Shown: positions 2,455-6,119 of the stretch, piece by piece
Layout: every line of letters begins with the position of its first letter
Numbering within the stretch: position 1 is the stretch's first letter
Assembly: GCF_000182565.1 (NCBI RefSeq)
Contig: NW_015971538.1
Location: forward strand, 775,736 to 839,735
DNA: 64,000 nt
Source of the DNA: Spizellomyces punctatus DAOM BR117
Taxonomy: Eukaryota; Chytridiomycota; Chytridiomycetes; Spizellomycetales; Spizellomycetaceae
Direction of reading: 5' to 3'
Made by a program: the position numbers and the translations under genes
The notes under the pieces: generated by a model
Databases searched by the model: none
Told to the model about the DNA's origin: nothing
What the model saw: the letters and a program-made list of their open reading frames with translations, nothing else

Positions 2455-2908
2455 TCATGCGGACTTGTCGGCAGAGGATGGTGGAGGCATTGGAATGTTA
2501 TCAAAATCGTCACGGCCCGTCTTGTACATTGAATAACCAACTAGATTTGAGCGTTCCAGAGTGTGAGTCCAGGACATCCCAACCATAAACTCCAAGGTCA
2601 TGAGCAACAGCCAACTTACATATAGCCAGCGTTCCTCCCAAAAGAATTCCTCCCACTATCATATTCCTCTTACGGTACGGCCGCATAATCTCCATTTTGG
2701 CGGCCATGAGCTGCTCGGGCGTCATGCTACGTTGGTAGGCGTTCAAATGTCTGTACGCTTCCTGAACTGGCATCTATACTCAACCATGTTAGTGATTGCA
2801 TTAATTGCAAGTGTCAATGCGCGGTATATGCGATTAACTCACGTTATGGAAATCAAAAGGGTGAGCAGGCTGTTGAGGTGCTGTCGGAAGGGGCGGAGGA
2901 TGAGCCAT
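2455..2908 (-). CDS. COA3: COA3, cytochrome c oxidase assembly factor 3
   Basis: Coa3 is a small single-pass inner mitochondrial membrane protein that regulates translation and early assembly of Cox1. Three exons, 2908-2843, 2773-2620 and 2540-2455, encode about 101 residues, and both junctions keep phase. The protein has a proline-rich start, a basic stretch before the membrane (EIMRPYRKRNM), one hydrophobic segment (MIVGGILLGGTLAIFGYSMY) and a short acidic/proline tail (DDFDNIPMPPPSSADKSA). This order, with RKRN just before the helix and Y-x-M-Y after it, is the Coa3/CCDC56 pattern. The start ATG is 19 bases from the stop codon of the upstream Fanzor-like ORF on the same strand. The COA3 promoter and 5' UTR therefore must lie inside or very close to that ORF. 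Assignment rests on a short family and is good but not certain. Confidence 0.82.
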
Positions 2909-2927
2909 TTTGGTGATTTCCAAAGCG

Positions 2928-4730
2928 TTAACTTGCAAGCGAACTAGTTGCTTGTTCACTGTGCGCGTTGCCAGGACACCCAGAGATGCTAGTGACGTGG
3001 TCATATAGTGTGCCCCGTTTGTGGACTTTTTCAACCTTGCCTTCTCGTCGTCGATAAGGTCTTGAATGAGGTCGTTCTTTGAATTTTTTCTCCACAAACT
3101 CAGATGAGGAACAGCGAGGGCAAACAGATGAGGTCTTGTACTCGTCGAGAAGGAAACAATCAATGCGGTTGCGCTTAAAGAGGGTGCTCCAGCCTTTCGT
3201 CTTTGATGAGGTCTGAAATCTCGCAGTTCGACCAGCGTCGCTCCAATCACCCATCACAATGGTAAAGTTCCCAAACTTGTTGCGCAAGTTGGATATGAGG
3301 TTCGATTCGCTTCGCTGCCGATTGATGAAGGAGTGCCATTTCCATCGCATGTGGGCAGGGTGGGAGTAGAATTCCTTGCGACGATCCCAATCAGCGCGGC
3401 GAACGAGAAGGTAGCGAGTGAAGTCCATGAGGTTCATTGTTTTGTGGGATGGTATTCGTGATTCTATGAGATCAACTCCAGCTTCTTCCTTCATTGCTTC
3501 TCGTCTCTTTGCAAATCGCCGGCTACCTGTCTCCACGGCTCGCTGGTTGGCGGTGTAGCGAAATGTCGTACCACTGTTGTCTTGGCAGTAGAGAAGATCG
3601 CGCTTGTTTGGGTCGATAACGATGACATTTTCTGCTGCTCGACAAGCAGGCAAGTTTTTCTCCACATATTGCGCTTTAACGTCGTCCTCTAAACTCTTTG
3701 CTGACTTTCTCGCTCCGCGCTTTCCACACTTGTCTGCTTCTGGGTGCTTTAGGTATACAGACACCGAGGTTCCGTCCGTCGTGATCGAGCCTTCAAAACA
3801 CATTCCATGACGAGATCTAAAAGCCTTGTTCTGCAGATTACAGATGCGCAACCATAAATCGACCTTCTCTACGGCTTCTGCTTCTCGTCGCGTGATGCAG
3901 AGGATGTGGGCGTAGAGAATGAGCGTGTCGATGCGAATATGGGACTGAATCAGAGACCGATGAAGAGGGATTGCACTGAACCGACGGAAGCCATGTCGTT
4001 CATACAGCCCAGAGAGTTTGCAGTATGCAGGAAAGAAAGCGAGAGGGTCTACAGCAACCGAATATGCGAACGGCTGGTCAGAAAGGGGAATGAAGGACCA
4101 CATCTCTTCTAGAAGTTCACTCTCTTTAGCAGTCAAGTCATCAAGTGACTCGGGCACAATATCAAAAAGGAAAATTGACTTCAAGTAGCGTAGCCGAGCA
4201 AAGAAAGCTTTCCGCGCTTCACTCTTTGGAGGCCCTTTCCGTCCCTTCACGTCGAGCCGCAGATTGATATACCGAAGGAGCATCTGCATGAAATGCTCTT
4301 GAACGTTGACTTTCAGGTTCGTCATCATACTCACTGTCAGGTAATTGACTGATTGCTGCTCGCCTCGTAGATTTGGGTGAACAAAGCCGACGATTTGGCA
4401 GTACCGTTGAACATATGGCAGCAAACAATCCCGCCATGCCTTCTTTGCTTCCTTTCTTGGATGCCAAGCCTCCCCCTTGTTGAGAAGATAGAGAATCGCT
4501 TCGATTGTATCTTCATTTACCGTGGGAAAGGTTGGTGCAGATAGGATGTAGAATTTGAGAGCGTGGGAAGCGTGGTCGGCGAGTTGATGGATGATGGCGA
4601 TGTAATCTAAAAGCCGTTGGCAGTAGATGTCGTTTGGCAGGAAAGCTTTTGCAAAGGAAGTCTTGTTGCAGGTATGTAAGCAAGTAGGTTTGTCGAGTTT
4701 TTCGAGCCTTTGCTTTTTCTTTGGTGGCAT
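2928..4730 (-). CDS. Fanzor-like TnpB-related RNA-guided nuclease
   Basis: Single uninterrupted 600-residue ORF, unlike the intron-rich neighbours. The start chosen, ATG at 4730, gives MPPKKKQRLEK, which resembles a nuclear localisation signal, and lies about 41 bases below a TATA-like box. The same frame opens further to ATG 4805. A RuvC-type core is visible: RuvC-I VIVIDPNKRDLLY with Asp about 373; RuvC-II FLLDEYKTSSVCPRC with Glu about 530; and the first zinc knuckle Cys537-x2-Cys540. This spacing (E followed by Y-K-T-S-x2-C-x2-C) is characteristic of Fanzor and TnpB. The basic, tyrosine- and leucine-rich N-terminal 370 residues fit the RNA/DNA-binding lobe. The last 60 residues are odd: the second Cys pair and a clear RuvC-III Arg-Asp-x2-Ala motif are not recognisable, only YDHVTS. 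The 3' end may be frameshifted or decayed. Fanzors act with an omega RNA usually encoded at or after the ORF end; none could be verified here. Confidence 0.85.
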   Translation of the reverse strand: MPPKKKQRLEKLDKPTCLHTCNKTSFAKAFLPNDIYCQRLLDYIAIIHQLADHASHALKFYILSAPTFPTVNEDTIEAILYLLNKGEAWHPRKEAKKAWRDCLLPYVQRYCQIVGFVHPNLRGEQQSVNYLTVSMMTNLKVNVQEHFMQMLLRYINLRLDVKGRKGPPKSEARKAFFARLRYLKSIFLFDIVPESLDDLTAKESELLEEMWSFIPLSDQPFAYSVAVDPLAFFPAYCKLSGLYERHGFRRFSAIPLHRSLIQSHIRIDTLILYAHILCITRREAEAVEKVDLWLRICNLQNKAFRSRHGMCFEGSITTDGTSVSVYLKHPEADKCGKRGARKSAKSLEDDVKAQYVEKNLPACRAAENVIVIDPNKRDLLYCQDNSGTTFRYTANQRAVETGSRRFAKRREAMKEEAGVDLIESRIPSHKTMNLMDFTRYLLVRRADWDRRKEFYSHPAHMRWKWHSFINRQRSESNLISNLRNKFGNFTIVMGDWSDAGRTARFQTSSKTKGWSTLFKRNRIDCFLLDEYKTSSVCPRCSSSEFVEKKFKERPHSRPYRRREGKVEKVHKRGTLYDHVTSISGCPGNAHSEQATSSLAS

Positions 4731-4770
4731 GATGATATCTGTAGAAAAGCCTGGGAAAATGGGCGACGAC

Positions 4771-4778
4771 TTATATAG
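4771..4778 (-). promoter_or_regulatory. TATA-like box of the Fanzor-like gene
   Basis: On the minus strand the sequence reads TATATAAG within CCTATATAAG, about 41 bases upstream of the ATG at 4730. It implies a very short leader and supports 4730, not 4805, as the start, because an ATG at 4805 would lie upstream of the box. The placement is by eye only. Confidence 0.5.
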
Positions 4779-4805
4779 GATTTTTTGGATCAAACCATAA
4801 TTCAT

Positions 4806-5152
4806 GAGTCTAAATCGAGTAAAATTATGATTAAATTGGTTGGAATCTCTGTACTAGTACCAATACCAATCGGCTCCGCACTATGTATTCCGTTCACACG
4901 GATGGCATATCTGTTTTTCCTCGTAGACATATATATATCGGCGGCGCCTCAGATACTTGTCACCTTCAACTGCTATAGAATTATCTTTTTATTGAATTTG
5001 CTCCCAAGTCCTTTCGTTATAATTGGTGTGCAGTATAAGGTCCGGATAACTTGGCAGCTAAAGATTTTCTGCATACCATGGACAAATTGTGGACAATAAA
5101 GTCTAGTCTTGCAGAGGGTAGAATACTCACATGGTCTGCAAGAAATAAAGTC
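4806..5152. other. intergenic, AT-rich, no gene seen
   Basis: About 350 bases between the 5' side of the Fanzor-like ORF and the 3' end of the derlin gene. Short ORFs here have no family features. I saw no terminal inverted repeats that would mark the edge of a transposon, although this is where the upstream boundary of a Fanzor-carrying element would be expected. Confidence 0.5.
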
Positions 5153-6119
5153 CTATATCTCAATCATTCTCTTTAAAAACTCAGGGGCGCGGAGAAGCCT
5201 TCGTCCTTCAGAGATCTCCATTCTCGGATAGACATCATCGAGAAAATAGTATACATGCCCCACAGCCAGCCCCATGAGGTCGCCTGCCGGCCATTGGTTG
5301 TTCAGGAGGATGGTAAACCCGAGTAGCACCCATGGCAGGTACGGAGCAGTAAAAGTGAAGATCCCCAGAAAGTTCATTCGAATGAATGCATTTCGTCGTG
5401 ACCAGACGTAAACGAGCATGAAAGTTAGAGGAGAAGAGAGGAACGGGATGGAGGTACGAGCAGGGAGTAGAGGCGACATGCCCTGAGAAGAAAAGGTTGG
5501 TTACTATTACATGACTTTTTGACGTATATCACGTCAAACTTTTCCGACGTAAGCTTACGATTGTTGCCAGCATTCCAAATAATAGAAACCATAGGAAGTC
5601 AGCCGTCCTCCCACGGAAAGAGCCTTCCTCCAACATACGGCTATATCGGACGCTGGAAAAACAACATTTGAGCATTTGCTTGTCCGCTTCACCAGACTAA
5701 CACTAGCCATACGTACAGGAAGAACATGTGGAAGAGGAAGTCGAGCGAAAAGTTTCCAAAGTACAGGAAGCTTGTGATAAGTCGCCACCACTGTGATGCA
5801 CCAACCAAATCAGTCACACACCAACAATCATTAATGGTGGACCAACAGGGACGCAGAAAGCTGCCTCAAAGCCTCATGTACTTACTTGTCTGGATCGCCA
5901 TATCAGCGTCCAGTTGAAGTAAAGGTGAAAGGGCGACACGAGATCCAGTTGCTACATGAATGCAATTGTGATAGATCCGTCGGTGATCGATTCCATTGTG
6001 CCAAGGGAAACCCCACATACTGAACTTACGCAGGCAAGGGTGGTCAACACCACAGCGGTAACATATGTCCGTGTGATGACCGGTACTTCATAGTACCACT
6101 CTTCTATAGGAAATGGCAT
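5153..6119 (-). CDS. Derlin (Der1/Derlin-2 family), ER-associated degradation
   Basis: Derlins are rhomboid-like pseudoproteases of the ER membrane that help retrotranslocate misfolded proteins with the Hrd1 complex. Five exons (6119-6030, 5951-5886, 5790-5717, 5652-5559, 5482-5153) encode about 217 residues with intact phase throughout. Family landmarks occur in order: N-terminal [19 protein letters not shown], the [19 protein letters not shown] loop, [45 protein letters not shown], and the helix-turn [14 protein letters not shown]. It ends at EFLKRMIEI, shorter than metazoan Derlin-2, as in some fungi. The gene is divergent from SEC4, with about 740 bases between the two start codons. Confidence 0.95.

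Follow-up and report, generated by a model that had tools for sequence, protein, structure and literature searches.

The window, a stretch of 64,000 nucleotides of the genome of Spizellomyces punctatus DAOM BR117, carries between a derlin gene and COA3 the remnant of a SPu-1 Fanzor1 element. Positions are counted from the first letter of the window, and all features of the window described here are read from the minus strand. Upstream of the element lies the 3' part of the derlin gene (5153..5479; Pfam DER1, profile positions 104-190). The remnant itself, as delimited by blastn and by comparison with 19 other copies, occupies 3021..4885 and runs from the left end to the codon of residue 570. 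Its left-end repeat (4854..4885) is kept intact, with 2 mismatches in 32 positions against the common left end; it starts with CATA, the CA preceding the repeat, and CATA is the TAM reported for SpuFz1 (PMC10432273). ORF and homology searches delimit a Fanzor1 ORF of 600 codons at 4730-2928, which starts with MPPKKKQ and has no internal stop, so that both the extent of the frame and its NLS-like start are as originally predicted; residues 1-570 belong to the element and residues 571-600 to non-element DNA. The TATA-like box that had been noticed upstream is TATATAA at 4771..4777, 47 nt 5' of the ATG. Sequence comparison of the fetched copies finds a TATA box at most 150 nt upstream in 16 of 20 SPu-1 copies, including the window copy, which makes it a family feature, and the remnant may still be transcribed from its own box towards COA3.

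COA3 (SPPG_08911) is located at 2455..2908. Its exons were placed by eye, the spliced reading is 100% identical to the 101-amino acid protein, and the Pfam family Coa3_cc is recognized. The ATG of COA3 is found 19 nt 3' of the Fanzor stop codon and 112 bp beyond the break of the element. The database protein begins at 2908, downstream of an in-frame ATG at 3004; a start at the latter would extend the protein by 32 residues (3004-2909) whose composition resembles that of a presequence.

Judged from its sequence, the ORF is a Fanzor1 and a copy of the SPu-1 element, residing in the genome that also encodes SpuFz1. A phmmer search of the PDB gives 1122 bits to SpuFz1 (8gkh), far beyond chance, with a match confined to query residues 2-570; the Fanzor identity assigned from the letters is thereby confirmed. 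Compared with SPPG_07727, the ORF product is 85% identical, with 95% of the query aligned. Residues 1-200 of SpuFz1 are matched exactly in copy L015 (contig C17) and are absent from the other 19 fetched copies; by contig and C-terminus, L015 is SPPG_07727. The SPu-1 element is already known, an active member having been solved and assayed. AlphaFold, run with 32 sequences, predicts the structure of the ORF product with a mean pLDDT of 83.6, residues 569-600 falling below 50. The top four Foldseek matches of the predicted structure, 9cey, 9cez, 9ceu, and 8gkh, are all SpuFz1, with TM-scores of 0.77-0.79 (by query) and rmsd values of 8.4-8.9. The proposed structural check thus returned a Fanzor-like fold, in which, according to the model, the RuvC part would be present except for its last portion. 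A Pfam scan of the ORF protein with E up to 1 yielded no family; despite this empty scan, the ORF and most of its relatives carry PF26935 in the protein database.

The catalytic residues of SpuFz1 are given as D383, E541, and D606 (PMC11423790, PMC10432273). Mapping onto SpuFz1 places the equivalent of D383 at Asp373 of RuvC-I (3612..3614) and that of E541 at Glu530 of RuvC-II (3141..3143), precisely where these residues had been expected. The first Cys pair of the zinc site, likewise foreseen, is C537/C540 (3111..3122), as seen in the protein sequence and in the comparison of copies. The second Cys pair and the RuvC-III Asp are missing and YDHVTS forms the tail, as had been described; the position of D606 is gone together with its segment, and one of the two Cys pairs remains. 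The window copy thus shares with SpuFz1 the left end, the TATA box, the RuvC-I Asp, the RuvC-II Glu, and the first Cys pair. It differs from SpuFz1 in that nothing of the element follows residue 570, and in two private changes, Tyr to Cys at the position of Y345 (3726..3728) and Arg to Ser at the position of R526 (3186..3188), where Tyr and Arg, respectively, are found in 17/17 other aligned copies. Of the mapped contacts to RNA, target, and TAM, 15 of 16 are kept, the exception being the Cys in place of Y345; this count omits Q152, N159, and R514, since at these numbers the letters in the mapping disagree with SpuFz1. In SpuFz1, Y345 contacts the TAM base where unwinding begins (PMC10432273). 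With an open frame and this set of contacts, the protein could possibly still bind nucleic acids. A Fanzor does not absolutely need Asp at position 606, since GtFz1 has Asn at the equivalent position and the D606N variant of SpuFz1, where D606A was tested as well, is more active than the wild type (PMC11423790). The loss in the window copy goes beyond such a single change and affects the whole segment.

Homology to the other SPu-1 copies ends at position 3021, after the codon of His570. The other copies go on with VHGLLGCTNPNC...RYWNRD, which contains the second Cys pair and the RuvC-III Asp; this tail with its YWNRD motif is present in 17/17 of the other copies whose frame was read, a set that does not include L027 and L028. 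The omega RNA of SpuFz1 comprises 75 nt of right-end sequence and a further 14-15 nt from the flank (PMC11423790, PMC10432273). A covariance model of the right-end repeat, built from 14 of the 19 matched copies (the region of L017 being partly N), finds the repeat in 19/19 other fetched copies; across the window it gives 0 matches to the repeat and the omega-RNA region. When three SPu-1 right-end stretches of ~270 bp, beginning just after codon 570, were compared with the window by blastn, no right end was found either, the matches being the left-end repeat and chance matches of 13-16 bp. An omega RNA had been proposed at 2700-3100; it was not found there, as the window lacks the right-end stretch in which SPu-1 elements carry it. 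The DNA across the junction (2780-3021) has one match in the genome, namely, itself. A ghost-type right end at the break was considered as well, because CGGGGCACACTA just past it resembles the ACACTA of ghost ends; the genome contains this 12-mer at one other place besides the break, i.e., two times in all, versus once for a reversed-pattern control, and the resemblance is attributed to chance.

Two of the three explanations initially offered for the unusual C-terminus do not fit these data. It is not a divergent version of the family sequence, as the last 30 residues and the stop codon (2928..3020) are non-element DNA which is unique in the genome. A recent frameshift is contradicted by the stop of homology at the codon of residue 570, with SPu-1 3' sequence nowhere else in the window. 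The family-like helical sequence reported from another frame (EKARLKKS...) is the same conserved DNA read otherwise, followed by the COA3 leader; this off-frame string also ends some annotated S. punctatus models. Another frame being open across the junction, one might still think of a frameshift or an overlooked intron behind which a normal C-terminus lies close by, allowing the full protein to be made, but this idea can hardly be entertained, as both the right-end stretches and the right-end model find no such terminus in the window.

The genome has 74 stretches that match the Fanzor ORF, which were chained into 57 loci if lying within 20 kb and in order. Thirty-three loci, including that of the window, span approximately residues 1 to 570, nine hold the 3' part only, and three a middle part. 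Twelve other loci hold the 5' part only, from which it follows that loss of the 3' part is common in the SPu-1 family. For the same strain, 42 Fanzor loci have been reported, 19 of them full-length and the rest partial (PMC10432273); the two numbers of loci (42 and 57) come from different methods, and the window copy resembles the partial loci in being partial as well. The other 5'-only loci stop at residues 81-524, whereas the window copy reaches residue 570 with its frame open. The 20 copies that were fetched with 3-kb flanks are the best matches and hence biased to intact copies. Apart from SPu-1, a distant Fanzor-like stretch (G000:C7:73759-74673) shows 23% identity over residues 230-542 and an open frame of 571 amino acids.

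The locus is best explained, with a probability of about 0.88, as a young SPu-1 Fanzor1 copy between derlin and COA3 that has lost its right end and is now a non-autonomous, dead relic. The right end would have been lost by deletion. Having one end only, the remnant would be unable to transpose; since the omega-RNA region is absent, it would have no guide of its own; and because the D606-equivalent segment is missing, the zinc site is halved, and Y345 is replaced by Cys, the protein would be unable to cut DNA. The copy is thus most likely catalytically dead. Among the original options, a catalytically weakened copy comes closest, although death would be likelier than weakening. By descent, the window copy counts as a defective Fanzor1, not as a functional Fanzor. 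That a frame is open does not by itself mean that a Fanzor works, since the final 300 bp of the element hold both the guide-RNA region and the third residue of the catalytic triad.

Recency explains why the frame is still open, the copy being young and having accumulated few mutations, and selection need not be invoked for it. In 1710 nt, it has six private substitutions (i.e., bases present in no other aligned copy), all of them nonsynonymous and none synonymous. The neutral expectation for these six changes is not rejected (p 0.60; there are too few changes for power), and the chance that six neutral changes create no stop is 0.74. Five of the six hit residues that are identical in 17/17 other copies, including Y345 and R526. 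In the pooled other copies, 145 nonsynonymous and 93 synonymous changes are found, compared with which six nonsynonymous out of six has a probability of ~0.05 and would be a weak sign of relaxed constraint. The dN/dS values of 0.13-0.28 between the window copy and 17 copies are inherited from the active family. The CpG observed/expected ratio of the window copy is 1.01, like that of undecayed copies.

TldR proteins are of the TnpB type and have a broken nuclease site, which is also the situation of the window copy. They are RNA-guided transcription factors derived from TnpB (PMC13418256). By analogy, the window protein might have been co-opted as a nuclease-dead Fanzor that borrows omega RNAs from intact or ghost elements, binds DNA without cutting, and acts as a regulator or as a brake on active copies. 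The open frame, the TATA box, and the retained contacts would suit such a role, and guides could come from right ends at other places of the genome, of which there are at least 40. The private changes, however, give no sign of selection, and two of them, Y345C at the unwinding contact and R526S, alter the protein unfavorably for this role; in contrast to TldR, it is a single copy, broken by the loss of one end and without a guide or omega-RNA region of its own in the window. Guides of other elements aimed at the locus were searched for: the 29 tested, a subset of those present genome-wide, give 13 weak matches in the window, none of which lies next to CATA (at most 2 mismatches over 14 nt). 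Co-option is consequently regarded as very improbable. Slightly less credible still is the view that the junction at 3021 arose in assembly or sequencing and that the 3' end is complete in the actual genome. A repetitive family is hard to assemble, and N runs do occur beside copy L017, but the junction lies inside a 2.17-Mb contig and runs into an intact COA3, and 3' loss is anyway frequent among the relatives.

As a defective copy, the window ORF itself matters little, and the family-level by-products of its analysis are of more interest. SPu-1 copies have exchanged sequence and are mosaics of each other. In an alignment of 18 copies, from which L027 and L028 were omitted, four-gamete incompatibility (the proportion of site pairs showing all four combinations) rises with distance, from 0.24 at ≤10 bp to 0.69 at >600 bp, and the clustering of site pairs was matched in 0 of 300 shuffles. 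Fifteen clonal simulations, which give ~209 informative sites versus 383 observed and rely on a tree built from the mosaic data, remained flat at ~0.30; in them, the window copy never had an identical run longer than 102 bp nor fewer than 25 private changes. The actual window copy has 6 private changes and a 415-bp run identical to L012 (4487-4073), which is on another contig, and elsewhere it shares identical stretches of 146-152 bp with L013, L015, and L024. In a control with 11 reverse-transcriptase copies, no distance effect was seen, the control being weak with 34 informative sites and a median identity of 98%; of the two nulls, the clonal simulation is preferable.

The similarity of the S. 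punctatus copies has been read as recent duplication or strong selection (PMC10432273), to which exchange between copies is added as a third contributor; the phrase "gene conversion" has 0 occurrences in that article, and among the listed titles on Fanzor together with gene conversion or with Spizellomyces, no report of exchange among Fanzor copies was found. Because of the exchange, copy trees and dN/dS values have to be read with care. With exchange established, it becomes testable whether Fanzor cutting drives it. In such a scenario, RNA-guided breaks made by Fanzor at element sites would be repaired from other copies, the window locus being a case of incomplete repair in which the right end was lost. 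This is considered unlikely; if true, Fanzor would drive gene conversion in a homing-like manner and thereby keep the copies alike and functional.

A second by-product concerns the decay of copies. Among the 72 internal stops in the genome-wide match table, 66 are TGA, while TAA and TAG account for 3 each. Five decayed copies (L053-L057) have CpG observed/expected ratios of 0.27-0.55, whereas the 18 aligned copies range from 0.90 to 1.11; of 26 TGA stops in the decayed copies, 23 are at positions where the commonest codon of the aligned copies is CGN. Together, C>T and G>A account for 44/48 of the changes in L053, 26/28 in L054, 40/45 in L057, 21/31 in L055, and 80/260 in L056, which is a more distant copy. 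The loss of CpG in the decayed copies would fit deamination of methylated CpG.

The right ends of the other copies were also inspected for promoter elements. With the tRNA B box consensus as motif, a B-box-like string is found in 17/19 of them (e.g., L018:4862-4972). An A-box-like motif precedes it in only 10/17, and GGTTC doubles, by eye, as an arm of a 7-bp stem. Neither Rfam (3 loci, E up to 10) nor ARAGORN (10 loci) reports a tRNA. Among the ghosts L030-L041, 9 of 11 listed ghost or hybrid ends read GGTTCATTC at the same place, and 0/11 fit the B box. That the omega-RNA region holds an RNA polymerase III promoter may be taken as a lead, no more. Two right ends, L040 and L041 (C10:4855-4940 and C9:735320-735405), start like a Fanzor end and finish like a ghost end and are apparent hybrids. 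At L019:2393-2502 there is a ghost right end, followed after ~330 bp by an intact Fanzor copy, beginning with its left end. In L016, an inverted left end (oriented 4975, 5049) follows 74 bp past the right end, like a second SPu-1 piece in opposite orientation.
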